DNA of 13,220 bases from Thermoproteota archaeon. GTDB lineage: Archaea; Korarchaeota; Korarchaeia; B14-G2. Positions 1 through 13,220 of the stretch are shown one piece after another. A model generated the notes under the pieces. It had not been told where the DNA came from. It searched no databases and saw only the letters and a program-made list of their open reading frames with translations. The position numbers and the translations under genes are program-made. Position 1 is the first letter of the stretch; the number at the start of each line of letters is the position of its first letter. The DNA lies in the NCBI GenBank assembly GCA_003661385.1, contig QMWA01000027.1, positions 1-13,220 of the forward strand. The letters run 5' to 3'.

Positions 1-102
1 CTGCCGCTAGCAGTGCAGTGCCCAGCTTGCTCAAGCCTCGAGACGGTGATACTGGATGGAAGAGGGTGTGTAGTAAGGAGCATAAGAGCAGAGAGGTCAT
101 GA
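1..102 (+). CDS. hypA: HypA hydrogenase nickel metallochaperone, C-terminal end (partial)
   Basis: Frame 1 is open from the window edge to TGA at 100-102 and gives 33 residues. They contain CPAC (residues 7-10 of the fragment), followed by a short beta-like tail (ETVILDGRG...VVRSIRAE). This matches the end of HypA: the second CxxC of the zinc ribbon, then a strand of the type 'v..G.el.v.sIe.e'. In the family, HypA binds nickel at its N-terminus and uses the zinc site structurally while delivering Ni to [NiFe]-hydrogenase together with HypB. The identification rests on a short piece, but hypB lies directly downstream, which is the usual neighbour. The 5' part lies outside the window. Confidence 0.8.
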   Translation: MPLAVQCPACSSLETVILDGRGCVVRSIRAERS

Positions 103-155
103 GCTGTCTGAACTCTGGCTTCCACCGCAGGCTACTGCCTGAAAGCTAGCAGCAT

Positions 156-162
156 GTTTTTA
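156..162 (+). promoter_or_regulatory. Possible TATA box for hypB
   Basis: A T-rich TTTTTAA lies in the hypA-hypB gap. Its centre is about 26 bp upstream of position 186, which would place a transcript start about 10 nt before the ATG at 196. It would mean that the more upstream ATG at 154 is not used. Weak evidence from one short motif; hypB could equally be read from the hypA transcript. Confidence 0.3.
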
Positions 163-182
163 ACCTCTGGAGGAGGAAGCTT

Positions 183-187
183 GGAGG
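183..187 (+). promoter_or_regulatory. Shine-Dalgarno site that decides the hypB start
   Basis: GGAGG, complementary to the archaeal 16S 3' end, sits 8 nt before the ATG at 196. The in-frame ATG at 154 has no comparable site, so 196 is preferred. Confidence 0.6.
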
Positions 188-195
188 GAAGCTGG

Positions 196-1068
196 ATGAG
201 CGCTGGCAGGCTTAAGAAGGCCTTGGAGCACTACTATGAGCATACTGCTGAGCACGCTGAGAAGCTCCGTGAGTATGCTGAGATGGCTAGGGGGGAGGGA
301 GCAGCTGGAGCTTCCCAGAAGCTTGAGCTTGCAGCTGAGCTCATGGATAGAGCAGCTGAGGCCATCAGGAGCGCCTGCATGAGCCTTAGCGAGGGGCCCT
401 CTAGGGTCATTGAGGCTGAGAGCCATGAGATCCTTGACATAGAGGTTGAGGAGAGTCTTCTCGAGGTGAATAGGAGGATTGCTGAGGAGAACAGAAGGCT
501 CCTCGATGAGCGCGGGGTCTATGTGGTCGAGTTCATGGGGTCTATTGGCTCAGGGAAGACTAGCTTGATCGAGGCTTTGGTCGAGAAGCTCAAGGAGAGG
601 TATAGGATTGGGTATGTGGCTGGCGACTTGACCACCACCATTGACGCTGACAGGGTAGGTAGGCATGGGGTTCCTGTAGTCCAGCTTAACACTGGAAGGG
701 AGTGCCACCTCGATGCAAACCTCTTCAGAAAGGCCCTATACCAGCTTGACCTCAATGGAATAGACTTGCTGCTGGTTGAGAACGTTGGGAACCTGATCTG
801 CCCAGCTGACTTCCCACTAGGCTCTCACAGGAAGGTTGTGGTTGTGAGCGTGACTGAGGGCGAGCACATGGTTAGGAAGCACCCCATCATATTCAAGGAA
901 GCTGACGTAGCTGTCATAAACAAAGTTGACCTGGCAGAGGAGATGGGTGTGAGCCCAAGCTCCCTTGAGAGGGACGCTAAGGAGCTTAACCCCAGGATAA
1001 AGGTTGTTAAGACGAGCGTGAAGACTGGTGACGGCATAGATGAGCTTGTGGAGGCCCTAGGACTCTAG
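196..1068 (+). CDS. hypB: HypB, GTPase for nickel insertion into hydrogenase
   Basis: HypB is a SIMIBI-class GTPase that works with HypA to load Ni into [NiFe]-hydrogenase precursors in the cytoplasm. With the start at 196 it has 290 residues. The Walker A loop is GSIGSGKT (115-122). The metal-site segment GRECHLDA has C170 and H171, and a further Cys lies in NLICPADFPLG (C202). VSVTEG follows, and the guanine-specificity motif is NKVD (242-245). The core (about residues 75-290) fits the usual archaeal size of about 220 residues. In front is an extra region of roughly 75 residues, rich in Ala/Glu/Lys/Leu, predicted helical, with a few His (12, 16, 20). It is not the poly-His or CxxCGC start of some bacterial HypB. 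The gene begins 93 nt after hypA. A longer form starting at ATG 154 is possible but has no ribosome site. Confidence 0.93.
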   Translation: MSAGRLKKALEHYYEHTAEHAEKLREYAEMARGEGAAGASQKLELAAELMDRAAEAIRSACMSLSEGPSRVIEAESHEILDIEVEESLLEVNRRIAEENRRLLDERGVYVVEFMGSIGSGKTSLIEALVEKLKERYRIGYVAGDLTTTIDADRVGRHGVPVVQLNTGRECHLDANLFRKALYQLDLNGIDLLLVENVGNLICPADFPLGSHRKVVVVSVTEGEHMVRKHPIIFKEADVAVINKVDLAEEMGVSPSSLERDAKELNPRIKVVKTSVKTGDGIDELVEALGL

Positions 1069-1124
1069 CTGTGGTGCTGGAGCCGTGTAAGCCGGGGGCT
1101 TCTGGCGCCAAATGCGTGGTTGAG

Positions 1125-1132
1125 CTTAAATA
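1125..1132 (+). promoter_or_regulatory. TATA box of the C25 peptidase gene
   Basis: CTTAAATA is a good archaeal TATA element. Its centre is about 26 bp upstream of 1155, giving an expected leader of only about 9 nt before the TTG start at 1164. A GGTG at 1157-1160 could act as a weak ribosome site. Confidence 0.55.
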
Positions 1133-1163
1133 CCGTGTAGCTGCCTGGGTTCTAGTGGTGTAG

Positions 1164-3347
1164 TTGAGGGTAGTCAAGGCTTTGGCCTCGCTCGTCGTGC
1201 TGGCTGCTCTCATGGTTCAGCCTACAGCAAGCCTAGAGCGGGACCTGGAGCTCACCGTGGAGGTGCCTGAGCCCAGGGTGTGGGTTGAGGACAGAGAGCT
1301 GCACCTGAGCTTCCATCCTGTTGCAGAAGCCCACAGGTATGGGGTGGCAGTGCTTGTGCCTAATGGCTGGGATGTCAGTGAGGTGCTAGCTGAGCCCATT
1401 GAAGTAGAGCCCTTGGGCGAGGGGGTTGTCTGCAGCACAGGAGAGCTGCTGGAGTACGGTGGGACACACAGCTTTAGGGGCTATAGGATAGCTCTCATAT
1501 CGATCGGAGCTGTAAGGTACCAGGGGCTTAGAGCTGAGCTCGTCAGGAAGGTGAGGCTTGTACTGAAGCTTAAGCCAGCAAGCTACGTGTACCCATACGA
1601 GTTCCCCCTGGTTGAGAGGTGGATTGAGAGAAACGTGGTGAACCCCTGGGAGCTTGAGAGCTATAGGCCAGTACACATGTCAGTAGACTACCTGATCATA
1701 ACCAGAGAGATGTTCCTCCAGGCTCTCCAGAGCTTTGTGAACTGGAAGAAGTCGCTAGGCTTCAAGGTGAAGGTTGCTACGCTGGAGGAGATCGTCAGAA
1801 CGCAGGGCGGTAGAGACTCAGCTGAGAAGATAAGGAACTACATAAGGCAGCTCTATGGGAGAGAAGCTGTCAAGTGGGTCCTCCTGGTGGGGGACGCAGA
1901 CCCAGATGACGTGCATAGGGAGCCTAAGTACTTGGTTGACAAGCCATGGGAGATCCCAGTGAGGTACGCCTACAACCCAGATGGAGTGGAGAGGTTTGGG
2001 ATAATTGAGCCTCCAGTCAGCTACACTCCAACAGACATGTACTACGCCTGCCTAGATGGCACATGGGACAAGGACAGGGATGGGGTGTATGGGGAGTCTA
2101 GGAGGAACTCGACTGAAAACGAGGTGGACTGGTTCCCTGAAGTGTACGTTGGCAGGCTCTGCGTCAGGACTGTTGAGGAGCTGAGAGACATGCTGGCTAA
2201 GGCAGTGAGCTACGAGAAAAACGCACCTAAGGAGCTCACTATGCTGCTGATAGGGTGCCAGACGCATGAGCACGAGGACACCTCCAGGATAGCAGAGTAC
2301 ATAGCTAAGTTTGCTCCACCAGATGTGAGGGTCATCAGGATATACGAGAGGTTTGGGAACCTCTCGCACTCTAACGTCGTGAAGACCATAAACAAGTATG
2401 ATCCTCAGCTAATCAGCATAGGAGCTCACGGCAACGAGTATGAGCTCGGCACCAGGATGAGAGGAGGAGAGACTATACTCAGCATAAGAGACACGCTCAC
2501 GCTTCGAGGAAGAGGGTTCATTGCGTTCGTCTACGCTTGCGCAAGCAACGCCTTCGACATGCTTGGGATACCGTACTACTTCGGTGAGATGCTGATGAAG
2601 GACCCAGATGGCTCAGCTGTAGCCTACATAGGTGCAACGAGGACAATATGGACTGGCAGAGAGTGGCAGCAGTACGAGTTCTGGAAGGAGATGTTCCAGG
2701 AAGGCAACTACTTCCCTGGCTCAGCACTCTACAACGCCAAGATATCGATGCTTGTTGCAGGCGGCTCCTACGACGATGAGGCAACCAGGAAGAACGTTTT
2801 CGCCATGTGCTTGCTTGGAGACCCAGCCTTGATGATCAGAGCTGGAGCGAACCCAGTAAGCTACCTCTCACTCAGGCTAAGGGCTGCACTGGAGAAGGCT
2901 AAGATCACAGCTGAGACAGACGCAGACAGGGAGATAGCTAAGCTGATAGCTTCGAGCGGCAAGAGCCTGGTAGACAAGATATTGGTTGGAGGCCCGTTCT
3001 CCAACAGGCTGGCAAGAGAGCACAACCCAAGCTGGCTTCAGTTCAAGAGGGAAGACAGCAGCATTGTGATGGTTGTGAAGAACAGGAGGTTCGAGTTCAC
3101 ACCAGACATGTGGAGCAGCAGAGACTATGGGATAGCGCTCGTCTTGAGGCACAAGAGAGGCTACCTGATAATGCTAGAGGGGATAACCAGGTATGGAACC
3201 AGAGCTGCTACGCTCTACCTGCTCAACAACATAGATGTCTTCCTGAACACCAAGGCTGTAGTAGTAGAGTGGGTGGATGTGAACGGAGACCACATGGTCG
3301 ATGCGAACGAGGTCAAGGAGGTGTGGAGCATAGCCATCGAGGGCTAG
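1164..3347 (+). CDS. Secreted gingipain-like cysteine peptidase (family C25)
   Basis: 727 residues from a TTG start. Residues 1-23 form a signal peptide: a lysine at 5, then a hydrophobic stretch 6-18, then PTAS. A prodomain-like segment runs to about 165. The C25 catalytic domain follows at about 170-560. The catalytic His is in GAHG (H422) and the nucleophile Cys in VYACASN (C459); the family uses this His/Cys dyad with a caspase-like fold. An acidic calcium-type loop DKDRDG (302-307) precedes the VYVGRL segment, both typical of C25. From about 600 a separate C-terminal module begins (LVGGP, 607-611). It ends with a near-perfect 12-residue EF-hand loop, D705-N707-D709-D713-E716. The protein is expected to act outside the membrane. 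The same C-terminal module occurs in the next gene downstream. Substrate unknown; the peptidase class is clear. Confidence 0.9.
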   Translation: MRVVKALASLVVLAALMVQPTASLERDLELTVEVPEPRVWVEDRELHLSFHPVAEAHRYGVAVLVPNGWDVSEVLAEPIEVEPLGEGVVCSTGELLEYGGTHSFRGYRIALISIGAVRYQGLRAELVRKVRLVLKLKPASYVYPYEFPLVERWIERNVVNPWELESYRPVHMSVDYLIITREMFLQALQSFVNWKKSLGFKVKVATLEEIVRTQGGRDSAEKIRNYIRQLYGREAVKWVLLVGDADPDDVHREPKYLVDKPWEIPVRYAYNPDGVERFGIIEPPVSYTPTDMYYACLDGTWDKDRDGVYGESRRNSTENEVDWFPEVYVGRLCVRTVEELRDMLAKAVSYEKNAPKELTMLLIGCQTHEHEDTSRIAEYIAKFAPPDVRVIRIYERFGNLSHSNVVKTINKYDPQLISIGAHGNEYELGTRMRGGETILSIRDTLTLRGRGFIAFVYACASNAFDMLGIPYYFGEMLMKDPDGSAVAYIGATRTIWTGREWQQYEFWKEMFQEGNYFPGSALYNAKISMLVAGGSYDDEATRKNVFAMCLLGDPALMIRAGANPVSYLSLRLRAALEKAKITAETDADREIAKLIASSGKSLVDKILVGGPFSNRLAREHNPSWLQFKREDSSIVMVVKNRRFEFTPDMWSSRDYGIALVLRHKRGYLIMLEGITRYGTRAATLYLLNNIDVFLNTKAVVVEWVDVNGDHMVDANEVKEVWSIAIEG

Positions 3348-3351
3348 CTTA

Positions 3352-3375
3352 TAGCCAGCGATGTACTGCTGGCTA
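3352..3375 (+). repeat. Perfect inverted repeat just after the peptidase stop
   Basis: TAGCCAGC (3352-3359) and GCTGGCTA (3368-3375) form an 8-bp stem with an 8-nt loop, 4 nt after the stop codon. It could be a 3'-end stabilising hairpin or a protein-binding palindrome. No T-run follows, so it is not a typical archaeal terminator. Confidence 0.5.
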
Positions 3376-3677
3376 GCACCATGGTGGCCTAGAGGCGCGT
3401 GAAGCCTTCGAGGTTGATGGCGTGTGCACTGCCTTTCATCGGTAAGAGGCCTGACCTCAGTGCTCGTGGGCAAGAGAGGCTGGAGCCCCGGGGTCTACGT
3501 GACCACTAGCTGCAGCAGCCTGCTCCTAGCCTCCCTTACCTCCAGCCTCTAGCGCCACCTAGCCCTCCTCGGCCTCTGAGAAGCCATGAGCCTATTAGGC
3601 GTGTAAGCTACTTGAGGCTGGTGTGATGAAGCTAGCTGCTGGCTTTAGCCCTGCTCCAGGCTCCGCCCTAGGTTAAG
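3376..3677. other. Gene-free intergenic stretch
   Basis: About 300 bp without a convincing gene on either strand. Open frames are short (the longest starting with ATG, at 3418, is about 30 codons) and resemble no family. I see no tRNA T-arm, no repeat array and no IS ends. The stretch 3500-3590 is C-rich on this strand. A GTGATGA at about 3623 resembles a C box but has no D box at the right distance. It may simply hold the 3' and 5' flanks of the two secreted-protein genes. Confidence 0.5.
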
Positions 3678-3685
3678 CTTTAATA
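3678..3685 (+). promoter_or_regulatory. TATA box of the 412-residue surface protein gene
   Basis: CTTTAATA in an otherwise GC-rich region puts the expected transcript start near 3708, giving a leader of about 28 nt. The leader contains AGGTG at 3725-3729, 6 nt before the ATG at 3736 and a good match to the archaeal anti-Shine-Dalgarno. This gene therefore seems to have its own promoter, separate from the peptidase gene. Confidence 0.5.
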
Positions 3686-3735
3686 CCTCCTTATGGAAGG
3701 CTGATAAGTACATGCCTGCCTAAAAGGTGTGAGGT

Positions 3736-4974
3736 ATGCTGGGAAGAAGGCTGCTTGCTGCTCTGCTTGTCACCACAATGCTGCTAACAGTAGCCTATGC
3801 TGGTGTAAATGTCGCTGTTGCGCAAGACTACCTTTGGCATGGGGTGCAGGAGTTTGTGATCCTTGCTAACGGGACAATGATATATAGGAATAAGATCAGG
3901 ATCATATGGGGTGAGCTCGGGGGAGAGACTAGGGAGCTTACTCCAGAGGAGTGGGAGGAGTATAAGAGCAGGCCTGGTGTCCAGAGGCTGTTCCAATCTC
4001 TGTCAGAGGGGAGGCTTGTCACAGACTTCTACACCTTGATCGGGCTAGGCTACCACAACGGGACAGACTTCACCGTGTACGACCCAGACTACAGGCTGTA
4101 CAAGGTGTTCCAGGGCTTTAAGCTTGATGACGAGGAGCACAGCTTCTACCAGGAGTTCCTAGTGTACTGGCCTAGAGCTAGGAACTGGGAGAGGGTTGAG
4201 GAGGGCATCAAGTTCACGTTCCTGGATGTATGGCACTATGATAACCCTGATGCGTGGATAGACGAGCTGACATTTAAGTTCGGGTCGGGAGTGAAGCTCG
4301 TGAGAGCTGTCGCCATCGACGACTTTGGAGACGAGGTGGAGCCCCATGAGCAGACTGAGGACATGGTGAGGTGGGTCTGGCCTCAGAACGGGAACATATA
4401 CCAGTATGAGATCACGATAACGTTCGATGGAATAGACAAGATCCCTGGGCTAGTAGGGCTGGACGCGCACTTCTACAACTTCACTCTCGAGAAGCCAATG
4501 ATATACATATCAAATGACATCGACGCCGAGCACTACCACAAGCTGAGGAAGCTGATTGAGCTGCCTGGAATGAGCATATCGCCAGGCAAGGCCTCCCCTG
4601 ACAAGCACTGGTTCATTGTGGGTGGGCCTATCGCTGTGCCTGAGGCTGCTGAGGTCAACAGCCTGGTTGGGATAGAGTTCGTGAAGGAAGCTGATGGCAT
4701 AAAGCTGGTGTATGGCGGTCAGGAGTACAAGATGACCTTTGACATGTTTGGGAAGGAGGACTGGGCTATAATAGGAGCATACGAGCAGGACGGCAGGATA
4801 ATCTACTTCATCCAGGGGATATCCAGGTTTGGGACTGCAGCTGGCGTCCTATGGGTTAGCAAGTGTGAGTACAGGAAGAAGCCTGCTGCACCACCTTACA
4901 TAATCCACTGGGTTGATAGGAACGGGAATGGGAGAGCTGACCCAGCAGACATTATAGAGCTCGTGTATCCATAG
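3736..4974 (+). CDS. Secreted surface protein of unknown function with the same C-terminal module as the peptidase
   Basis: 412 residues. The N-terminus is a signal peptide (Arg 4-5, hydrophobic 6-28, cleavage likely near VAVA-QD at 29-30). I do not recognise the main body (about 31-285): it is rich in Tyr/Trp/Asp/Glu, looks beta-rich, has no further membrane segment, and carries possible N-glycosylation sites NGT (45, 108) and NFT (248). From about 290 it aligns by eye with the end of the C25 peptidase. IVGGP (294-298) matches LVGGP, then FDMFGKEDWAIIGA matches TPDMWSSRDYGIAL, GISRFGTAAGVLW matches GITRYGTRAATLY, and HWVDRNGNG matches EWVDVNGDH. The final loop D394-N396-N398-D402-D405 is a degenerate EF-hand. 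A VGGP-type module is reminiscent of archaeal S-layer and surface proteins, from memory only. Function is unknown; a cell-surface location is likely. A convergent gene ends 10 bp downstream. Confidence 0.8.
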   Translation: MLGRRLLAALLVTTMLLTVAYAGVNVAVAQDYLWHGVQEFVILANGTMIYRNKIRIIWGELGGETRELTPEEWEEYKSRPGVQRLFQSLSEGRLVTDFYTLIGLGYHNGTDFTVYDPDYRLYKVFQGFKLDDEEHSFYQEFLVYWPRARNWERVEEGIKFTFLDVWHYDNPDAWIDELTFKFGSGVKLVRAVAIDDFGDEVEPHEQTEDMVRWVWPQNGNIYQYEITITFDGIDKIPGLVGLDAHFYNFTLEKPMIYISNDIDAEHYHKLRKLIELPGMSISPGKASPDKHWFIVGGPIAVPEAAEVNSLVGIEFVKEADGIKLVYGGQEYKMTFDMFGKEDWAIIGAYEQDGRIIYFIQGISRFGTAAGVLWVSKCEYRKKPAAPPYIIHWVDRNGNGRADPADIIELVYP

Positions 4975-4984
4975 CCCTAACCCC

Positions 4985-4991
4985 TTATTTT
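4985..4991 (+). terminator. Possible short T-rich terminator
   Basis: TTATTTT 10 bp after the stop of the 412-residue protein gene is the kind of short T-tract at which archaeal RNA polymerase stops. It overlaps the stop codon of the convergent gene. Tentative. Confidence 0.25.
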
Positions 4992-5958
4992 GGCCTCAAG
5001 TAGTCTCCTGGCGCTGTCCCGATGGCCACCTGGTAGCACTCTTCTCCGTTTGAGACCAGCTCTAATGTCCCCCTGAACTTTATGTGCTCCCCTTCTTTGA
5101 ATAGGCTTCTGTGCTCTCCGTTCCATGAGACTAGCTGCACAGGCTGTGGTGTTATGGTGGGGTTGGCTATCTTGTACACTGCAGGCCTGTAGTGGGATAG
5201 CTTGCTGTCTATGATCCTGCATGACCCCCTGACTCTCGCTACTGGCGTGAATCTCCTCTCCCCGTATCTCTCTGCTGCCTCGTGCCTTGGCTTTACTGCG
5301 TTGATGACAAACCTGGCTCCCTGTAGACTCCGCGGTTCAGCCTCCTCTTGGAGATCCAGTCTACCCTGGTGATCTCGAGGCGCCCCTTAGCTTCTAGAGA
5401 CAGGGCTGCCTCTATCACTCTGGTATAGTTTTCAGCTCCTTCTACTGCTAGGTCTATGTCTGAGCTGGATGTGTGCATCTGTAAGGCTATGGAGCCTCTC
5501 AGGCCTATCGTGTACTCTGGTAGCTTGGCTTCCCTCTCAAGCTCCTGCATGAGCTCTAGGGCCTTCTGCTCTAGGGGGTCTCTCCTGGGCTTCTCTTCTA
5601 CTGCCAGCCTGCCTTCCTGTGGTGTTATGTGGCGCTCTATTCTCGATGTGGGCACTGCTATGAGCTCTTTTCCGAGGTATGGGCAGCAGTAGACGTAGGC
5701 TGGGAAGTGCTCTCTGAGCACGCTGAGGCTTCTCAGGTATCCTCTAGGTGTCAGCGCGTCTACTTGCCTGAGCATCGTTGTGCCAGCTAGCCTCCACCTT
5801 ACCCCCTCGTATTCCCCTGGGAACAGGTGCTTTAGCTCCTCTGGTATGTACTTCAGGGCTGCTATCACCCTGGATGGGGGGTGGGTGTAGCCTAGTACTG
5901 TGAATATGAGCTTGTCTCTGGTCAGGAGAATGTCCCCATCTCTGTACACAGTGGTCAC
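4985..5958 (-). pseudogene. Nucleotidyltransferase-fold protein, interrupted by a -1 frameshift
   Basis: Read from GTG at 5958, the frame gives 213 good residues up to VYR (last codon 5322-5320), then quickly runs to a stop at 5293-5295. Re-reading one base at 5320 (GGG at 5321-5319, perhaps once GGGG) continues as GARFVINAV... for 111 more residues to TAA at 4985-4987. The joined product is about 324 residues, close to the 341 of the upstream paralogue, and the tail matches it: RIIDS/EVIDD, YRPAVYKI/YIPSVWLV, LVSW/VVSY, GEHIKFRGTLELV/GETIIAAGVLEEV. The first part has the shared GYTHP (23-27) and the polymerase-beta-type motif GS (155-156) with DID (167-169). The start overlaps the upstream stop as GTGA, implying coupled translation. 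The family resembles the archaeal 'predicted nucleotidyltransferase' group; substrate unknown. The gene is either a fresh pseudogene or a sequencing error; recoding is less likely because no slippery heptamer is visible. Confidence 0.75.
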
Positions 5959-6980
5959 CTGGCTACCTTTATCCCGTGGGCGTGTAGCCTCGGGTTCTGT
6001 GTTACCGTGATCTGCAGGTAGCTTCTCGCTGGTGACTTGACTTCCTCGAGCACCCCTGCTGCTATTATGGTCTCTCCTGCTTTGGCCTGCATCTTGAAGT
6101 CCTCTATGTATGAGACCACTCTCTCTACTGGTGGGCCTTCCACTGGCTCTACTAGCCAGACTGATGGTATGTATATCGACTCCGTGTCGTCTATGACCTC
6201 TAGCTTCGCCTTAGCCTCGCCTACCCTCCTTATGGTGAGGGGCTCGCCTCTCACCTCGCTCCAGCCTTTGACTGGGTGGAACTCGACCTTTATCTCTCTC
6301 CAGCTGGTGTATACTGCGTAGTAGGGCTTTCTCAGCTGGTGCCATAGGTGCTCTCCTGGTGTGAGGAAGGTGCTCCAGAAGGGCTTGCTGGCATGGTAGT
6401 GTAGCCAGGCCCTGTACTCCTGCTCCAGCTGGATGCCTGGGTCCCTGTACGCTTCCTCCAGGAACTCAGCTAGCTCCCTGGCGTTCCTGAGGCCTATGAC
6501 TGTCAGGTCTATGTCTGATAGCTTTGGGTGGTGGAAACCATGTTGGATTGACCCGAAGACACCTAGGCTTCCTATAGACACCTGGGTGTGGTCTTCTATG
6601 AGCTCCACTATCCTCCTGAGCTCCCTGGTAAGCTCGTCTTCCTCCCTTGAGAGAGCCGCTCTTAAGCCCTCTTCAGGCCTTCTAGCCTCCTTTACTAGGT
6701 GAGCTGGTGCTCCAGGAACCCTGGTGTTGAGGTGTGGGTGTACTACTGTGAGCTCAGGGTGCATTTCGATGAGCTCCATGGGCTCGCTCCCATAGAGCTT
6801 GTAGTACACAGTCTTGGGGTAGCCTCTCGGTGCTCTAGGGTTCCTTGACTTGAACACGCTGGGTGGAGTGTACTCTGGCTCACAGACCCACCCTGAGCTT
6901 GGGTGGGTGTAGCCTAGCACCCTCATTATCACGCCGCTATGCAAGACTACAGAGTCCCTGTCTCTGAGCTGCATGAGCAT
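5955..6980 (-). CDS. Nucleotidyltransferase-fold protein (polymerase-beta superfamily), intact paralogue
   Basis: 341 residues. An N-terminal domain with GYTHP (23-27), where the paralogue has the same motif at the same positions, is followed by the nucleotidyltransferase core. The core has GS at 143-144 and DID at 156-158, matching hG[GS]x9-13Dh[DE]h. A likely third acidic residue is E233 in IKVEFHP. A beta-rich C-terminal region (about 255-330) is conserved in the neighbour. In the superfamily these residues bind Mg-NTP and transfer a nucleotide; the acceptor is unknown here. No helix-turn-helix or toxin-antitoxin partner is seen. The ATG at 6980 is supported by a TATA element about 28 bp upstream, so the transcript is probably leaderless; the in-frame ATG at 6974 is an alternative. 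It overlaps the next gene by 4 bp and probably forms an operon with it. Confidence 0.8.
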   Translation of the reverse strand: MLMQLRDRDSVVLHSGVIMRVLGYTHPSSGWVCEPEYTPPSVFKSRNPRAPRGYPKTVYYKLYGSEPMELIEMHPELTVVHPHLNTRVPGAPAHLVKEARRPEEGLRAALSREEDELTRELRRIVELIEDHTQVSIGSLGVFGSIQHGFHHPKLSDIDLTVIGLRNARELAEFLEEAYRDPGIQLEQEYRAWLHYHASKPFWSTFLTPGEHLWHQLRKPYYAVYTSWREIKVEFHPVKGWSEVRGEPLTIRRVGEAKAKLEVIDDTESIYIPSVWLVEPVEGPPVERVVSYIEDFKMQAKAGETIIAAGVLEEVKSPARSYLQITVTQNPRLHAHGIKVAR

Positions 6981-6988
6981 CGGGTGAG

Positions 6989-6994
6989 TTATAT
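6989..6994 (+). promoter_or_regulatory. TATA box for the pilin-like cluster
   Basis: TTATAT is centred 27 bp upstream of the GTG at 7019, so the transcript would begin at or next to the start codon (leaderless). It lies inside a 38-bp divergent gap shared with the minus-strand promoter. Confidence 0.5.
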
Positions 6995-7005
6995 GCTCAT
7001 GTCCC

Positions 7006-7011
7006 TTATAC
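7006..7011 (-). promoter_or_regulatory. TATA box for the nucleotidyltransferase pair
   Basis: Read on the minus strand this is GTATAA, followed by GG. It is centred about 28 bp upstream of the ATG at 6980, consistent with a leaderless transcript. It is interleaved with the plus-strand element at 6989-6994. Confidence 0.5.
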
Positions 7012-7018
7012 GTTTGGG

Positions 7019-7420
7019 GTGTATTTGAGCAGGGTTGTAGCTCAAGCCCTCCTGATCATATCTAGCCTGGCCCTCCTGGCTGCTTTAAGCGAGGACCTCA
7101 TCTTAGGCTTCAGCAGGCTGCTTGAGGCGCGTGAGAGGAGGGCTCTGCTTGAGTTCTCCCGCGAGATAGACTCTAGCATATGCTCTGTGCTCTATGGCGG
7201 GTGTGTTGTGAAGGTTGTTGAGTGCCCTGGTGTTGAGGCTGAGTCTACGTGTGAGCTCGGTACTGTTGTGGTCTTCAAGCTCGGCAACCAGACAGCCACC
7301 TACTACTACCCTGTTGTAGTTCAGGTTCCAGGCTACTTCCCAGAAGGAGAGCTGAGGGTCAGAGCTAGGAGAGCTGGCTGGGGTGTTGCTGTGGAGTTTG
7401 AGGTGGTTGGCGGTGGGTGA
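7019..7420 (+). CDS. Small membrane-anchored protein, pilin-like, gene 1 of cluster
   Basis: 133 residues from GTG 7019 (TTG at 7025 is an in-frame alternative). There is a short tail with Arg5, one hydrophobic helix at about 6-23, an amphipathic charged helix to about 50, then a domain outside the membrane with four Cys (55, 62, 69, 78), probably two disulfides, and beta-type sequence to the end. This is the layout of archaeal type IV pilin or pseudopilin proteins, but there is no clear [KR]G cleavage site before the helix. First gene of a run of five; the next start overlaps its stop by 8 bp. No family recognised; it could also be a plain membrane-anchored protein. Confidence 0.65.
   Translation: MYLSRVVAQALLIISSLALLAALSEDLILGFSRLLEARERRALLEFSREIDSSICSVLYGGCVVKVVECPGVEAESTCELGTVVVFKLGNQTATYYYPVVVQVPGYFPEGELRVRARRAGWGVAVEFEVVGGG
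7400..7405 (+). promoter_or_regulatory. Shine-Dalgarno site that decides the start of cluster gene 2
   Basis: GAGGTG, a full match to the archaeal consensus, lies inside the end of gene 1 and 7 nt before the GTG at 7413. This favours 7413 over the longer start at 7383. Confidence 0.55.
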
Positions 7421-7838
7421 GCTGCTGAGAACCGTCTACCTGGCTCTTGGGGTGTTTATGCTGGTGTCCTCTGTCCCTCTGGGGGCTGCTGTCTCAGCTG
7501 AGCTCAGGAGGAGGTTCATACTTGAGGTTGCTGAGGACCTTGCTCTGGCTATTAGGCTCGTGAACTCGACTAAGGTCTCTGTTTTGTATAGGCTTCCAGA
7601 AGCCAGTGAGGTTTCTCTCGTCGAAGCTGATGCAGCATACACTGTGAGGGTAGCTGGCAGCACTGTGGAGGTAGCCTACACTGGGCTTGACTGGAGCAGG
7701 TTTCCACCCAGGGCATGTGAGCGTGAGGTGGAGGTCAGCTGTGGAGTCCAGGTCATGTGCGATGTTGAGCTCAAGGCCGGGGATACTGCCTTGATAGAGC
7801 CAGCTAGTGGGGGCGTCATCATTGGAGGAGGTGGTTGA
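7413..7838 (+). CDS. Small membrane-anchored protein, pilin-like, gene 2 of cluster
   Basis: 141 residues from GTG 7413. Arg6 is followed by a hydrophobic helix (about 8-24). A second amphipathic helix with EDLALAIRLVN comes next, then SVLYRLPEASEVSLVEA...YTVRV and a Cys-bearing part (102, 110, 116). The pattern 'helix, then v.Y.LP....v.l......v.v' is common in archaeal pseudopilins and gives the best hint to the nature of this cluster, though that is from memory and not from a search. It overlaps gene 1 by 8 bp. The tail is glycine-rich. An odd number of Cys suggests one could pair with another cluster protein. Confidence 0.65.
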   Translation: MGELLRTVYLALGVFMLVSSVPLGAAVSAELRRRFILEVAEDLALAIRLVNSTKVSVLYRLPEASEVSLVEADAAYTVRVAGSTVEVAYTGLDWSRFPPRACEREVEVSCGVQVMCDVELKAGDTALIEPASGGVIIGGGG

Positions 7839-7950
7839 GGCCTTCGCTGCCGTCCTGCTGTTCACCCTCGCTCTCCTGGCTCTGCTTGCTGTCGAGCCTA
7901 GCAGAGAGCCTGCTGTCAACCTGACTAAAGAGCTCTGGTGGTTTCCTTGA
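7822..7950 (+). CDS. Very small single-helix membrane protein, gene 3 of cluster
   Basis: 42 residues from TTG 7822. Alternatives are GTG 7807 (47 residues) and GTG 7831 (39 residues, overlapping gene 2 by 8 bp). An acidic start LEEVVE leads into a hydrophobic helix AFAAVLLFTLALLALLAV, then a short polar tail ending KELWWFP. It is too short for usual gene callers. Support comes from context: without it a gap of more than 100 bp would break the overlapping run, and its stop TGA (7948-7950) overlaps the TTG start of gene 4 as TTGA, the usual coupling arrangement. The hydrophobic core followed by a short tail fits a pilin-like or accessory membrane peptide. Function unknown. Confidence 0.5.
   Translation: MEEVVEAFAAVLLFTLALLALLAVEPSREPAVNLTKELWWFP
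7937..7941 (+). promoter_or_regulatory. Shine-Dalgarno site for cluster gene 4
   Basis: GGTGG sits 5 nt before the TTG at 7947. This supports that start over the GTG at 7938, which lies within the site itself. Confidence 0.45.
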
Positions 7951-8306
7951 GGGGAGCTAGCTTAGCTCTACTAGACTGCATCCTGGTTGCTGCAGTAGCT
8001 GTGGCTGCACTAGCTGTGAGAGCACACTTCACTAGGAGCTTCGATGAGGCTGTTGTGCTCGAGTCCTTCAGAGCCTCTAAGGCTGCTGTGGAGCTCGGCT
8101 GGGATGGGATGCTGCTCCACAGCGTCTGGAGGCTCCTATCAGGAGGCAATGGAGCCCAGCTGCTTCACGAGGCTTGTGGCGCCAGAGTCGAGCTGGGACC
8201 GAGTGAGGCAGGGGAGGTCAGCGTAGTCTATGGTGAGGCTAGAGCTCTGCTCGTCTGCTATGGAGCTATGGTGGAGCTTAGGGTCATGATGGGGGTGGGT
8301 GCATAG
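7947..8306 (+). CDS. Small membrane-anchored protein with class III-like signal, gene 4 of cluster
   Basis: 119 residues from TTG 7947. The start reads (M)RG-ASLALLDCILVAAVAVAALAV. An Arg-Gly pair directly before a hydrophobic helix is what archaeal prepilin peptidases cut in class III signal peptides. Then come an amphipathic helix (FDEAVVLESFRASKAAVEL) and a small beta-type domain with two Cys (in EACG and LVCYG), plus one Cys inside the helix. It overlaps the 42-residue gene by 4 bp and ends 1 bp before gene 5. Likely a minor pilin or pseudopilin; no family recognised. Confidence 0.65.
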   Translation: MRGASLALLDCILVAAVAVAALAVRAHFTRSFDEAVVLESFRASKAAVELGWDGMLLHSVWRLLSGGNGAQLLHEACGARVELGPSEAGEVSVVYGEARALLVCYGAMVELRVMMGVGA

Positions 8307-8307
8307 C

Positions 8308-9303
8308 ATGCATAGGAGAGGGGTGGTCTTAACCATAGCAGCTTTGGTGGCTGCGCTCTCTACACTAGCTTGGAGCCCTCTCCCATACAGGTTTTATGGG
8401 GAGAGGAACAGGAGGCTCGGTGAGATAGCGCTGCTCTGGTGTGAAAGGGAGCTTTCCCAGGTTTCTCTCCTCGTTTATGTGAGGAGCTGGCTTGACAGCA
8501 GGATAGCTGAGGTAGCCTCGTGTGGCCTAGACCCATACTGCGAGCTCTCTAGGGTTCCAGCCAGCAGCTGGGCTGGCGAGTACTCTAGGTGGCTCTCTAG
8601 GCTTCCAGTCGAGGGGAGCTTGAAGGCGTATGCTACTGCGCAGCCCTACTCTGGGCAGACTGTAGACGAGCAGCAGCTGAAGGCTATAGACGGGAGAGCT
8701 CAGCCAGGTGGTGTTTACATCGAGGGGCAGCTTAGCGGCTGTCTTAAGGCCTCAGTAGCGTACACTGAGGTGGACTTGAGCATAAGAGCTGCACACCCAG
8801 CTAGAATATACCTGCTATACCACATGTCAGAAGCTGCTAAGGCTGCAGCTGAGAAGACCATCAGAACTAGGTTAGACCATGGGCGTAGAGCTGGAGCTAA
8901 GGTGATAGCATGCAGGTACTCCAGACTCTATGAGCAGCTGCTGAGGGAGGAGCTGAGCAGGCTTCCATGGCCTCTTAGAGAGTCTAGCCTAGAGGTGAGG
9001 TATGTGGTTTCAGTTGATGTAAGGTACTATCACAGGTACTATGAGGATTACCTTGGCTTAGGGCCTGCCACCCGCGTGACTAAGGTCGTCAGCGTGGAGA
9101 TAGCGGTTCTGGAGAGGCAGGCCTGCGACAGGAGCCCGTACTCCAAGGTCTTCACGGGAGGGGAGCTTGTCAGCGTAGAGTACGCTGGGAGGGCCTGGAG
9201 GACAGGAGTCTTCATGTATGTTAGGAGCTGGATTGAGAGGGGGCATGTCAGGTATAGGGGGAGCAGCTTCAAGCTAGAGAGAAGGCTGTCACTCAGCTTC
9301 TAA
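8308..9303 (+). CDS. Larger membrane-anchored extracellular protein, gene 5 of cluster
   Basis: 331 residues from ATG 8308, which has GGTG 6 nt upstream; a GTG at 8299 is the longer alternative. The start is MHRRG-VVLTIAALVAALSTLAW, again a basic-Gly pair before a single hydrophobic helix. The remaining 300 residues are soluble and mixed helix/strand, with six Cys, including SCGLDPYC. By shape only (an RRG-start hydrophobic helix with a large outside domain, last in a pseudopilin run) it recalls bacterial GspK, the tip pseudopilin of type II secretion; I see no sequence proof. No assembly ATPase or platform gene lies in the window, so any machine would be encoded elsewhere. It is the last gene of the run, and a new promoter overlaps its stop. 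Confidence 0.65.
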   Translation: MHRRGVVLTIAALVAALSTLAWSPLPYRFYGERNRRLGEIALLWCERELSQVSLLVYVRSWLDSRIAEVASCGLDPYCELSRVPASSWAGEYSRWLSRLPVEGSLKAYATAQPYSGQTVDEQQLKAIDGRAQPGGVYIEGQLSGCLKASVAYTEVDLSIRAAHPARIYLLYHMSEAAKAAAEKTIRTRLDHGRRAGAKVIACRYSRLYEQLLREELSRLPWPLRESSLEVRYVVSVDVRYYHRYYEDYLGLGPATRVTKVVSVEIAVLERQACDRSPYSKVFTGGELVSVEYAGRAWRTGVFMYVRSWIERGHVRYRGSSFKLERRLSLSF

Positions 9304-9310
9304 ATATAAG
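9302..9310 (+). promoter_or_regulatory. TATA box overlapping the end of cluster gene 5
   Basis: AAATATAAG is a strong archaeal TATA element. Its centre is about 26 bp upstream of the ATG at 9332, which points to a leaderless transcript starting there. The ATG at 9311 would lie immediately next to the TATA box and could be used only by read-through transcripts. Confidence 0.55.
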
Positions 9311-9331
9311 ATGGGAAGACAGAGGCTGTGT

Positions 9332-9904
9332 ATGAGGAAGGTCAGGCTGGCCTACTGTGCTGAGTGGGCTCTGGACTTCAGGAGGGCAGCTGAGCTCTTC
9401 ATGGAGGCTGCAGCTGAAGCTGAGGACAAGGGAGTGAAGGCTTCCTGCCTAGCTAACGCAGCCAGGACCGCAAGCCTGTGCGGGGACGAGGACCTCGTGG
9501 CAAGAGCGTCAGAGGCCCTTGAAGCCCTGTCAGATGCCCCACTCTACACGTGGCTGGTGAAGAGCACCTCCAAGTACAGGAGGGTAGCTGGGCACCTAGC
9601 TGGACTCAGGGCTGCGGTACACTCAGCTGGAGCATTCAAGTTCACGCTTCTCCCGCTGGGAGGCGCATGCCAGATAAGAGGCTATACGGAAGCCGAGTTC
9701 AGGATAGAGGAGGTGCGTGAAGCAGAGCTGAGGGAGCTGACCAGCATCAGGAGGGGAGAGGGGTGGCTTCTGGCTGAGTTCTCAGGTGGGTTCATCTACC
9801 TCATGGAGGATGGGGCTGTTGTCGGGGTGGCTCTGGGAGAGAAGCCTGTACCTCAGGTGTCTAAGGCTCTGGAGGAGCTCAGCAAGCTCATTGGGAGGGA
9901 GTAG
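9332..9904 (+). CDS. Soluble protein of unknown function with TPR-like N-terminus
   Basis: 190 residues from ATG 9332 (197 if ATG 9311 is used). No signal peptide or membrane helix. Residues about 1-70 are Ala-rich antiparallel-type helices (ALDFRRAAELFMEAAAEAEDKG, then ASCLANAARTASLCGDEDLVARA...) resembling two TPR-like hairpins. The second half is mixed alpha/beta (FKFTLLPLGGACQIRGYTEAEFRI...GWLLAEFSGGFIYLMEDG). I do not recognise the family. Its TATA box overlaps the end of the pilin-like cluster, so it is probably transcribed separately. The 3' end overlaps the convergent tatD gene by 52 bp. Confidence 0.7.
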   Translation: MRKVRLAYCAEWALDFRRAAELFMEAAAEAEDKGVKASCLANAARTASLCGDEDLVARASEALEALSDAPLYTWLVKSTSKYRRVAGHLAGLRAAVHSAGAFKFTLLPLGGACQIRGYTEAEFRIEEVREAELRELTSIRRGEGWLLAEFSGGFIYLMEDGAVVGVALGEKPVPQVSKALEELSKLIGRE

Positions 9905-10647
9905 AGGCCCACAGTGTTCTCGAAGGCTGCCTCAGAGACGACGGCAGCCTCCACCCCCCTTATCCTAGCTACCTCAGCTGCAGCTACAGCTATGTTCGCA
10001 GGCTCGTTTCTCTCTCCAGCTACAGGTGCTAGCGCAGGAGAGTCGGACTCCAGCACCAGGCACTCTAGCGGAGCTTCAGCAGCAACTCTACGAGTTCCAG
10101 CATGCCTGGTGACAGACGTCGAAACTGAGATCAAGTAGCCTAGCTTAGCAGCTCTCTCAACGTCACTAGAGCTGCCGGTGTAAGCGTGCAGCAGCACTAG
10201 GTCAGCTCTGTGCTCCTCAAGCAAGTCTAGCACAGCCTTCTGAGACCACCTAGAGTGCACTACAATAGGCTTCTTCAGCTCCATGGCCAAGCTTATGAAG
10301 TCTGAGAAAACCCTCCTCTGAACCTCCCTTTCCTCCACTCCTCTGGCCATCTTGAAGTCCAAGCCCACCTCTCCTATAGCAGCTATGCTGTGAGAGAACT
10401 TCCTAGCGAGCTCCTCGACCTCCTCAGCTTCCCTGCTGTATAGGCGTGGATCCAGCCCAATGCTCCAGAAGACGCCGGCCTCCATGAGCTCGCCAGCCAT
10501 GCTGGCATGCCTCATAGCCTCAGCTACGCTGAGAGTAGAGCTGACCATGTAGACTACACCAGCCCTCTTAGCTCTCTCAACTACCTCTGCTAGGTCAGCT
10601 GAGAAAGCTGAGTCCAGTAGGTGGCAGTGTGCGTCAGCTAGCCTCAT
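9853..10647 (-). CDS. TatD-family metal-dependent hydrolase (deoxyribonuclease)
   Basis: 264 residues. All TatD metal-ligand motifs are present: DAHCHL (H7, H9), GEVGLDF (E93), VVHSR (H131), LLHAYTGS (H154) and LESDSPAL (D202). The family has a TIM-barrel fold with a two-metal site, and characterised members are 3'-5' exonucleases acting on DNA. The length is normal for the family. The ATG at 10647 is chosen because a TATA-like element sits about 26 bp upstream (leaderless) and the next residues are the conserved MRLADAHCH; the upstream TTG at 10665 is unlikely. It is divergent from radA over a 63-bp gap, so both nucleic-acid genes may respond together, though that is only a suggestion from context. 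The 3' end overlaps the convergent unknown gene. Confidence 0.92.
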   Translation of the reverse strand: MRLADAHCHLLDSAFSADLAEVVERAKRAGVVYMVSSTLSVAEAMRHASMAGELMEAGVFWSIGLDPRLYSREAEEVEELARKFSHSIAAIGEVGLDFKMARGVEEREVQRRVFSDFISLAMELKKPIVVHSRWSQKAVLDLLEEHRADLVLLHAYTGSSSDVERAAKLGYLISVSTSVTRHAGTRRVAAEAPLECLVLESDSPALAPVAGERNEPANIAVAAAEVARIRGVEAAVVSEAAFENTVGLYSLPMSLLSSSRALDT

Positions 10648-10668
10648 GCAGCACAAACCCAGCAAACG

Positions 10669-10678
10669 CTTAAATACC
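10669..10678. promoter_or_regulatory. Shared TATA-like element for tatD and radA
   Basis: CTTAAATACC reads as a TATA box on the plus strand (expected start near 10699, leader about 12 nt with GGTG at 10700-10703 before radA). On the minus strand it reads GGTATTTAAG (expected start at about 10647, the tatD ATG). It is the only AT-rich stretch in the gap at the right distance from both genes. Confidence 0.55.
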
Positions 10679-10710
10679 TTGGCTACGCCTTTACCATTAG
10701 GTGCAGTAGC

Positions 10711-11676
10711 TTGGGTAGGAGGTCAAAGAAGGAGATTGAGGAGATCACAGACCTACCTGGCATAGGCCCTCAGACAGCTGAGAAGCTTAGGGCAGCAGGG
10801 TACACGACTATAGAGTCTATAGCGACAGCCTCGCCAGCTGAGATAGCCATGATAAGCGGGATAAGTGAGGCTCAGGCAGCTAAGTTCATAGCAGCTGCCA
10901 GAGCAGCACTAGACCTCGGGGAAGTCGAGACCGCATACGAGTTCCTCCAGAGGAGGAAGCAGGTCAGGAAGATAACGACCGGCTGCAAGGCCCTAGATGA
11001 CATGCTAGATGGAGGCATAGAGACAGGCACGATAACGGAGGTCTACGGGCCATATGGAAGCGGCAAGACACAGCTATGCCACCAGCTCTCAGTTACAGTC
11101 CAGCTCCCAGAGGAGAGGGGTGGGCTAGGCAAGGGGGCATTCTACATAGACACAGAGCACACCTTCAGGCCGGAGAGGATAGTTCAGATAGCCAAGGCCT
11201 TTGAGCTAGACCCCATGGAGGCCTTAAAGAACATACTCTACGCCAGGGCGTTCAACACAGACCACCAGGTGCTCATCACAGACAAGGCAGAGGAGTACAT
11301 TAAGAGCAGGAACATAGGGCTCCTCATAGTAGATTCGCTCATAAGCCACTTCAGAGGAGAGTACGTTGGGAGAGAGACCCTAGCTGAGAGGCAGCAGAGG
11401 CTTAACAAGTACATACACAAGCTCCTCAGGATGGCAAGCGTATACAACATAGGAGTCCTGGTGACGAACCAGGTGCTAGCTAACCCAGGCATATACTACG
11501 GAGACCCGCTCTCACCAGCTGGAGGCCATGTGCTAGGCCATGGGGTCACATGCAGGCTCTACATAAGGAGAACTAAGGGGGATAGGAGGGTGATAAAGCT
11601 GGTGAAGAGCCCATACCTCCCAGAGTCCTCCATAGAGGTCGCGATCACTGAGAGCGGGATTGCAGCCGTCGAGTGA
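10711..11676 (+). CDS. radA: RadA, archaeal RecA/Rad51-type recombinase
   Basis: 321 residues from a TTG start with GGTG 7 nt upstream. An N-terminal helix-hairpin-helix DNA-binding domain (about 12-65; LPGIGPQTAEKLRAAG) is followed by the RecA ATPase core with Walker A GPYGSGKT (113-120), YIDTEHTFRPERI, Walker B LLIVD (204-208), VTNQV (251-255), an L2-type loop (about 256-275) and KLVKSPYLPE near the end. It forms filaments on single-stranded DNA and drives strand exchange in repair. The length is normal for archaeal RadA. In the linker, the residue that aligns with the Phe of the FxxA polymerisation motif appears to be Val72 (VETA). The 3' end overlaps the convergent pncB gene by 32 bp. Confidence 0.97.
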   Translation: MGRRSKKEIEEITDLPGIGPQTAEKLRAAGYTTIESIATASPAEIAMISGISEAQAAKFIAAARAALDLGEVETAYEFLQRRKQVRKITTGCKALDDMLDGGIETGTITEVYGPYGSGKTQLCHQLSVTVQLPEERGGLGKGAFYIDTEHTFRPERIVQIAKAFELDPMEALKNILYARAFNTDHQVLITDKAEEYIKSRNIGLLIVDSLISHFRGEYVGRETLAERQQRLNKYIHKLLRMASVYNIGVLVTNQVLANPGIYYGDPLSPAGGHVLGHGVTCRLYIRRTKGDRRVIKLVKSPYLPESSIEVAITESGIAAVE

Positions 11677-12820
11677 GCCTGCTGAGCTGCTCGAGCACGT
11701 AGCTACGTATCTCCAGCACGCTCCTCTTGGGGGCTATAGCCCTGCCTCTCTCAACGTGCTTGACCATCTTGTTCTCCATGAGCTCACCGCAGCTCGGGCA
11801 CCTGGGCTTAGGGGAGCCAGCTGCTAAGACCATGGATTCCATGCAGCTGCTGCAGTAGAACACGTCCTTCCTGCCAGCTGGCTTCCCCCTCTTGGCTACA
11901 GGCCTCCCCTCGACCTCAACTATGTCCATGCTGAAGTCCACGGTCTTGGCGTTCGATATGTAGGTCCCGACTCCGAAGGCGTCAGCTCCAGCTTCAGCTA
12001 GCTTCGCAACAGACTCCTCATTGAGCCCTCCTGACACGAATATCTTCACATGCCTATAGCCTCTTAAGTCGAGCTCCCACCTCACCTCCCTCACTATGTC
12101 CTCCATTGACCCCCTCCTAGAGCTTGGGGTGTCAAGCCTGACAGCAAAGAGCTTTTCCTTGAGGAGGTCAGCTGCCATGACAGCCTCAACCTTCTCATCA
12201 TAGAACGTGTCAACTAGAGCTATCCTGGGGACATCGCTGGGCATCACGTCGTCAAAAGCCTTCCAGGCGCCCCTCTGGTCTCCGAAAACCAGGATCAGGG
12301 CGTGAGGCATTGTGCCAACGGGCTTGAGGCCGAGCTCGCTCAGCAGCTTGAGGGAGCCGCCGTCGCAGCCCCCTATTATCGCAGCTCTCTCTACGACCAG
12401 GCTGACAGCAGGGTGCATCCTCCTCACCCCAAAGCTGTAGACAGGCTTCCCCTCGGCTGCGAGCTTCACCCTAGCAGCTGCCGTAGCTACGCCAGAAGCC
12501 TGGCACAGCATCCCCAGTATGGCGGTCTCATACCTGCAGAACACCCCATAGGGGCCCTCCACCCTAGCTACGGGGACCTCCCTCCTGAAGACTGTGCCCT
12601 CTGGCAGGGAGTAGAAGTCCACGCTAAGGCCCTCTAGGAGCTTGCATACATCCTCCACACCTGCTAGCACAGCCCAGCTCCAGTTGTTAGGGAGCTTATG
12701 TGAGACTATCTCAGCAGCTACCCACGTGTCATATAGCCCCTTCCTCCTGAGGATCTCCTCAGTCCTCTCGAAGTATATGTCAGTTACATCACCCCTCTTA
12801 ACTTCCTCCCAAGTCACCAT
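11645..12820 (-). CDS. pncB: Nicotinate phosphoribosyltransferase with zinc knuckle
   Basis: 391 residues from ATG 12820 (a TTG at 12847 is a longer, less likely start). It makes nicotinate mononucleotide from nicotinate and PRPP in NAD salvage. Family signatures in order: DIYF near the start, SFGVRRMHP (H136, the region of the conserved histidine), IGGCDGG, TMPHAL, ALVDTFYDE, VRLDTPSSRRG (227-237), FVSGGL (261-266) and AFGVGTYIS. Near the C-terminus, CSSC (323, 326) and CPSC (341, 344) form a four-Cys zinc knuckle, known from the archaeal Thermoplasma enzyme. It is convergent with radA and overlaps it by 32 bp, so it is not in the radA operon. Confidence 0.93.
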   Translation of the reverse strand: MVTWEEVKRGDVTDIYFERTEEILRRKGLYDTWVAAEIVSHKLPNNWSWAVLAGVEDVCKLLEGLSVDFYSLPEGTVFRREVPVARVEGPYGVFCRYETAILGMLCQASGVATAAARVKLAAEGKPVYSFGVRRMHPAVSLVVERAAIIGGCDGGSLKLLSELGLKPVGTMPHALILVFGDQRGAWKAFDDVMPSDVPRIALVDTFYDEKVEAVMAADLLKEKLFAVRLDTPSSRRGSMEDIVREVRWELDLRGYRHVKIFVSGGLNEESVAKLAEAGADAFGVGTYISNAKTVDFSMDIVEVEGRPVAKRGKPAGRKDVFYCSSCMESMVLAAGSPKPRCPSCGELMENKMVKHVERGRAIAPKRSVLEIRSYVLEQLSRLTRRLQSRSQ

Positions 12821-12849
12821 GTTGAATAGACGCAAGCTAGCACCCAAAA

Positions 12850-12857
12850 GAATATTA
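12850..12857 (-). promoter_or_regulatory. Possible TATA element for pncB
   Basis: On the minus strand TAATATTC lies about 30 bp upstream of the ATG at 12820. It gives an expected start near 12829 and a leader of about 9 nt. No clear ribosome site is seen. Moderate to weak. Confidence 0.35.
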
Positions 12858-12872
12858 GGGCAATCAGCCCCA

Positions 12873-12882
12873 TGTATAAAGG
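12873..12882 (+). promoter_or_regulatory. TATA box of the GTPBP1-like gene
   Basis: TGTATAAAGG is a strong TATA element. Its centre lies about 25 bp upstream of the ATG at 12902, so the transcript is probably leaderless. It shares an 81-bp divergent gap with the pncB promoter. Confidence 0.6.
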
Positions 12883-12901
12883 TTAGCAGGCTGGTGGCTG
12901 C

Positions 12902-13220
12902 ATGGAGAGGGTCCGAGGGAAGGAGAGGGAGACTGGGCCAGTCGAGTACAAGCTCACGCTGGCTGGAGCAAGCGAGCGCAGGATAGAGGAGCTAGCAACC
13001 CAAATGGAGTACAGGATAAGAGAGGGAGGGGGAGAAGCCTTCTATGAGATTGGGGTGTCAGATGAAGGCGAGCTGCTGGGGCTGCCACCCCAAGAGCTAG
13101 AGAAGACCCTGGAAGTCCTGAGGGAGGTAGCTAGGAGGATTGGAGCTGAGCTCAGGGTCCTCAGGGAGGTTGAGGGGAAGAAGGGGCTTGTTGTAGAGGT
13201 TCACGTGAGGAAGGTCCTCC
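12902..13220 (+). CDS. GTPBP1-like translational GTPase, N-terminal part (partial)
   Basis: 106 codons run open to the window edge. The sequence has EYKLTL, then RRIEELATQMEYRIREGGGEAFYEIGVSDEGELLGL, then a helix ELEKTLEVLREVARRIGAE. This fits the N-terminal domain that precedes the EF-Tu-type G domain in archaeal and eukaryotic GTPBP1-like proteins: a TQM.yRl.EG.GEA.Y.IGv.ddG.. segment. The G domain itself would lie past the end, so the GTPase call is inferred from this domain only. Members act on the ribosome or in mRNA surveillance. ATG 12902 is supported by a TATA box about 25 bp upstream. Confidence 0.7.
   Translation, partial: MERVRGKERETGPVEYKLTLAGASERRIEELATQMEYRIREGGGEAFYEIGVSDEGELLGLPPQELEKTLEVLREVARRIGAELRVLREVEGKKGLVVEVHVRKVL

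Follow-up and report, generated by a model that had tools for sequence, protein, structure and literature searches.

How archaea that lack a wall polymer retain the proteins they secrete is a question largely unanswered beyond lipid anchors, membrane helices and archaeosortase. Several described systems invite comparison. Gram-positive bacteria use CWB2 and SLH, mobile non-covalent modules that are common to surface-layer (S-layer) proteins and other secreted proteins, and type IX secretion with the sortase PorU combines a C-terminal domain common to many secreted proteins with a C25 peptidase. The closest described relative of the element reported here is S_layer_C (PF05124), represented in the PDB by the crystallised, dimeric anchor domain of the Methanococcus voltae S-layer protein (9FSA; residues 24-75 and 484-576; PMC11410804). 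Here we describe a C-terminal module carried by a C25 peptidase and by the protein encoded next to it in a korarchaeal genome (assembly GCA_003661385.1, contig QMWA01000027.1, positions 1 to 13,220; this whole stretch of 13,220 nucleotides is termed the window).

The two genes lie on the same strand and are separated by approximately 390 bases. Their relevant features are listed below, with the source of each in parentheses.

1164..3347, + strand: C25 peptidase of 727 amino acids with a TTG start, carrier 1 of the module (open reading frame (ORF) list; Pfam Peptidase_C25)
1164..1232, + strand: putative signal peptide of the peptidase, residues 1-23, ...LVVLAALMVQPTAS (hydrophobic N-terminus in the translation)
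1689..2834, + strand: C25 catalytic domain (Pfam; genome profile search)
2874..3344, + strand: S_layer_C-like C-terminal module of the peptidase, core 2976-3329 (BLASTP, hidden Markov model (HMM), AlphaFold2 model)
3276..3311, + strand: EF-hand-type loop DVNGDHMVDANE of the peptidase module (sequence, alignments)
3736..4974, + strand: secreted protein of 412 amino acids, carrier 2, with an N-terminal domain that matches no known one (ORF list)
3736..3825, + strand: putative signal peptide of the neighbour, residues 1-30 (hydrophobic segment at residue 7, mean 2.1)
4486..4971, + strand: S_layer_C-like C-terminal module of the neighbour, core 4597-4965 (BLASTP, HMM, AlphaFold2 model)
4915..4950, + strand: EF-hand-type loop DRNGNGRADPAD of the neighbour's module (sequence; codon-pattern match at 4909-4931)

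Both proteins end in the same module of approximately 150 residues, as an earlier note on this DNA had proposed from inspection by eye. BLASTP aligns the two tails with 51.6 bits and an E value of 3e-14 (36 of 129 positions identical, 28%), and their Smith-Waterman score of 123 lies far above the scores of 2000 shuffled sequences (26.3 +/- 4.2, maximum 56). When the terminal acidic loop is cut off, the score is still 104 (shuffles 23.8 +/- 4.2, maximum 53), and therefore the match is not confined to the loop; a match limited to it was an outcome that the note had named as overturning its proposal. Similarity by chance or through the loop alone is thus ruled out. The remainders of the two proteins are unrelated, again as claimed, with a best E value of 3.4 between them outside the tails. 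Only the limits of the module require correction. Because a strand and a helix, forming a beta-alpha unit, precede the GGP strand at which the tails had been said to begin, the start is moved approximately 30 residues upstream (25-40 residues from the positions originally quoted), so that it falls near residue 571 in the peptidase (2874) and near residue 251 in the neighbour (4486).

Two AlphaFold2 monomer models also agree with this assignment. The neighbour's sequence was left out of the alignment used for the peptidase tail, and the two input alignments have most rows in common. The peptidase tail was modelled with a mean predicted local distance difference test score (pLDDT) of 79.0 and a predicted template modelling score (pTM) of 0.78, and the neighbour's tail with values of 74.6 and 0.72. 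The order of strands and helices is identical in both models from the GGP strand onward, so one and the same fold is predicted for both tails rather than the different folds that would have spoken against a shared module.

On sequence evidence, the module is a contiguous paralogous branch of the S_layer_C superfamily that is capped by an EF-hand-type loop. Its profile aligns with the C-termini of korarchaeal S-layer proteins in hhalign with a probability of 97.2 and an E value of 3.4e-11, and the module HMM also recovers two proteins (L056 and L062) that pass the PF05124 cut-off. 9FSA is the best PDB match of a profile built from 15 tails (E 4.6e-4; 0.0057 with a 40-tail profile). It also appears among the structural matches of the neighbour's tail model (Z 4.9, root-mean-square deviation 3.7 A over 98 residues), though not among the VIA matches of the peptidase tail. 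The GGP-x-x-N strand-helix, the V-x-G-x-x-R-x-G-T helix and the alpha/beta order are shared with S_layer_C and 9FSA. Unlike these, the module is contiguous and C-terminal rather than assembled from the two ends of a protein, has an additional W-x-D strand followed by the EF-type loop, and is located on enzymes and binding proteins. Also unlike S_layer_C proper, most members score below the Pfam threshold. Of 40 module sequences, 13 have an S_layer_C match (best E 3.8e-6), in most cases under the curated score; the peptidase tail reaches 13.2 bits against a gathering score of 23.9, the neighbour's tail has no match, and the carriers elsewhere that do pass, with 25.1-25.6 bits, are few.

The S-layer proteins themselves are widespread in the class, where S_layer_C matches occur in all 26 genomes and exceed the curated cut-off in 24. 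Many of these genomes encode a protein of approximately 930 amino acids whose S_layer_C domain is split between both ends, as in Methanococcus (E 8.5e-42 for the representative in G002, a protein of 937 amino acids at G002:C1:1520121-1522637). In the window's own genome, one half appears to sit at an end of contig C14 and the other at an end of C18. S-layer N-termini (L134, L141, L143) carry an acidic DYDGDG-like loop, for example IDYDGDGVPDIAIIIG, just ahead of the first strand of the split domain, so the loop stands before the first strand in the S-layer protein and after the last long strand in the module. Directly downstream of the S-layer gene in two genomes lies a gene (L139 2165-4462; L141 3823-5499) whose product in the window's genome carries a membrane segment at the C-terminus, together with an Arg-rich tail. 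This product is a candidate for the stalk of the S-layer or for its anchor in the membrane. Secreted proteins of approximately 513 amino acids in several genera (L119-L121, L124, L056) have an N-terminal S_layer_C-type domain without an EF loop, followed by a further region.

Another relative is found in winged helix-turn-helix (wHTH) regulators of the ArsR type (L045-L047, L123, L125), whose C-terminal S_layer_C-type domain matches the module in hhalign with an E value of 1.2e-15. These proteins carry the same domain, including the terminal D-x-D-x-D-G loop. Unlike the carriers described below, they are apparently cytoplasmic and DNA-binding, and in many other archaea mostly one is present per genome. 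Here a regulator that is apparently cytoplasmic uses a fold known from surface anchors.

The distinguishing feature of the module is its C-terminal EF-hand-type loop, WxDxNGNGxVxxxEI. A strict 12-residue pattern, D-x-[DNS]-x-[DNS]-G-x-[hydrophobic]-x-x-x-[ED], is present in 53 of 84 carriers and in none of 398 mechanical ORFs, and most remaining carriers, both window proteins included, have near variants. The neighbour's loop has 12 residues of the form D-x-N-G-N-G-x-x-D-x-x-D, whereas in the peptidase loop (D-x-N-G-D-H) the glycine at position 6 is replaced by histidine. The EF-hand loop reported in the earlier note is thus present, although it lacks helix-loop-helix flanks: in both models there is a single loop with a strand on either side and no more helix than one turn. 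The alignment of 40 modules (members chosen at <60% identity) has one loop per module, and identities as a dockerin or as a helical EF-hand were consequently rejected. Matches to calmodulin-type PDB entries arise from the loop together with the residues that immediately precede it, with alignments over the last 20-45 profile positions, and were likewise set aside. The loop probably binds Ca2+. Invariant across the 40 modules are G16, G17, D62, G81, G86, T87, A89, W112 and D114.

The proposal that this is a mobile module placed at the ends of unrelated secreted proteins was borne out by HMM searches, which recovered the module from almost every genome of the phylum. Among 84 non-redundant ORFs, 77 carry it at the C-terminus, with no more than 15 residues after it. 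The N-terminal parts are mutually unrelated and include C25, C11 and M28 peptidases, transglutaminase, SBP_bac_5 and thioredoxin-like domains, as well as GH113, GH114, WD40 and BNR propellers, FG-GAP with CARDB, Flg_new_2 and a PMT_2 membrane protein. A simple Kyte-Doolittle scan of the fetched loci, rather than a trained predictor, found a hydrophobic N-terminus in 61 of 71 full-length carriers; the other ten include five wHTH regulators and one downstream half of a split gene. A further strong hydrophobic segment is present in only four of the 71. In G002, genes for two BPD_transp_1 permeases and for an oligopeptide ATP-binding cassette (ABC) ATPase come after that of a module-bearing SBP_bac_5 protein, an arrangement which implies that this binding protein should stay at the cell. 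In one locus (L101, G008:C126:2000-19851), seven same-strand genes each end in the module, with varied N-terminal parts that include Flg_new_2 repeats.

A profile of the two window tails gave 16 matches at E <=0.01 in their own genome and many more in the class. The 15-tail profile finds between 1 and 19 matches in each of the 26 class genomes, and the 40-tail profile matches all 29 genomes of the phylum; a narrower tail alignment used as a contig query yielded seven loci. Outside the phylum, most matching archaeal genomes have a single, weaker match to the 40-tail profile that is of a different type. The inspected matches of three genomes (G019, G020 and G025) are wHTH or N-terminal S_layer_C-type proteins rather than the EF-capped secreted form.

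The window peptidase is a clear member of family C25 (Peptidase_C25, PF01364, residues 176-557, E 2.7e-60; 205 bits against a Pfam cut-off of 23). We take the His of GAHGNE and the Cys of VYACASN to be its catalytic dyad, by analogy with gingipains. The earlier note had named frequent occurrence of the module in genomes with such a peptidase as support for its proposal, but a link between the two is not supported. PF01364 matches are found in only 8 of the 26 class genomes, whereas all 26 have the module or S_layer_C-type relatives, and therefore the tag is independent of C25 peptidases. C25 proteins checked in genus g4 are without the module, and the essentially complete genome G002 has five modules and no C25 protein above threshold. 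C25 proteins that do carry it are the window's, one in G021 (858 amino acids, cut by a contig end) and probably a split C25/C11 gene on contig C84. This last gene (L050, G000:C84, 979-4657), the second C25 gene of the window's genome, consists of two overlapping ORFs. The first resembles the peptidase of the window as far as residue 496 of the latter. The second opens with a match to residues 504-562, after which come a clostripain (C11) domain and the module. It looks like a single C25-C11-module protein broken by a frameshift, either genuine or made during assembly.

Kinship with the S_layer_C anchor makes surface anchoring or assembly plausible, so this part of the suggested common sorting, anchoring or assembly signal stands as a reasonable expectation while its link to C25 peptidases falls away. 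We lean towards the view that the tail is the phylum's dedicated, calcium-closed module for non-covalent retention, or docking, at the cell surface. Carriers would be exported through an N-terminal signal that is subsequently lost, would have no membrane segment of their own, and would fold their C-terminal module outside the cell. There, the last strand with its invariant W-x-D would lead into the EF-hand-type loop, whose probable Ca2+ binding would pin the C-terminus. The module would then keep its carrier in the surface layer by contact between domains, the simplest partner being its homologue, the S-layer protein's anchor domain, much as the M. voltae anchor pairs with itself. In this it would act like the Gram-positive CWB2 and SLH modules, although it has no Pfam match to those families and is present once per carrier rather than in triplicate. 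The more far-reaching possibility that each genome has roughly ten secreted enzymes and binding proteins that use a C-terminal paralogue of the S-layer's anchor domain to dock to that layer, in a phylum-wide, calcium-closed display system that replaces lipid, membrane-helix or sortase anchoring, is one that we put forward tentatively and hold to be somewhat doubtful.

Several observations weigh against retention as the general role. The S-layer protein observed here in Korarchaeota lacks a membrane segment at its C-terminus, and genus g6 has S_layer_C proteins but the EF-capped module was not found in its two genomes, which are 71-78% complete. The wHTH regulators, which are apparently cytoplasmic, carry both domain and loop, and the domain is therefore not intrinsically a surface tether. 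One carrier, the PMT_2-type protein L061, is already embedded in the membrane, so the module cannot be only a substitute anchor. Also, every structural match of the predicted fold has a Z score below 8 and alone would be weak evidence.

A role as a calcium-closed folding or stability cap, or as a homodimerisation domain, that protects against heat and proteolysis without tethering would accommodate the EF-type loop at the very end of the protein, the dimeric state of the M. voltae relative (PMC11410804) and the presence of a membrane-embedded carrier. We regard this as unlikely, since the module is located on proteins that need retention, such as the oligopeptide-binding protein encoded beside its permeases, and most carriers lack any other anchor. 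Binding to a surface glycan or polymer rather than to protein (S-layer glycan or N-glycan, or lipid-linked sugar), in the manner of CWB2, is suggested by the fold comparison. The best solved-structure neighbours by Z, common to both tails, are N-terminal domains of GH67, GH84, GH115 and GH20 glycosidases (best VIA Z 7.6 and 6.6, one per tail) and BcsB (Z 4.9-6.1). One module-bearing C25 protein also has a weak CW_binding_2 match elsewhere in its sequence. However, these Z values are all modest, and the glycosidase and BcsB domains, although similar in predicted fold, occur in other protein contexts and share no significant sequence similarity with the module, the sole hint being a weak Pfam match to BcsB in L045 (E 0.026). 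These glycosidase domains are not known to bind sugars, and the invariant Gly, Asp, Thr, Ala and Trp residues form no obvious sugar site. We consider glycan binding a rather poor prospect.

Processing of the module as a cleaved sorting signal by the C25 peptidase, as PorU processes type IX C-terminal domains, is very improbable. PorU does belong to C25 and the peptidase itself bears the module, but its match to T9SS_sortase (E 1.9e-19) gives 68.9 bits where the NCBIfam equivalog cut-off is 420. Unlike in type IX secretion, whose C-terminal domains are a different domain family, occurrence of the module does not follow C25. The distribution of PF01364 given above, including the five modules of G002, leads us to reject a C25-dependent sorting system. 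Copying of the tail between two adjacent genes on the same strand, with no wider role, can be practically dismissed, because unlinked carriers, which number in the dozens and are present in every genus of the class other than g6, are as alike as the two neighbours.

The superfamily is known. For its use as a phylum-wide, EF-capped C-terminal module of secreted enzymes, searches of openly licensed literature gave no precedent, and they turned up no account of a korarchaeal module of this kind. If surface retention by this paralogue of an S-layer anchor is its role, the module points to an undescribed retention route. It also offers a marker by which the exported surface proteome of a still uncultivated phylum could be recognised, and its proposed properties are directly testable with recombinant domains.

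Some further observations concern individual carriers and the surroundings of the two genes. L061 (3592-5670, G000:C10) is a PMT_2-type membrane glycosyltransferase with a terminal module; a physical link between protein glycosylation and the surface layer may exist. A Pfam scan of the 412-residue neighbour found no domain above its cut-off; two homologues (33-34% identity), both with the module, are encoded side by side in G021. Downstream in the window, two overlapping adjacent ORFs at 5293-6980 on the minus strand each contain a GS...SDIDL nucleotidyltransferase-type motif, and four consecutive ORFs with hydrophobic N-termini at 7019-9303 on the plus strand possibly encode pilin-like surface proteins.

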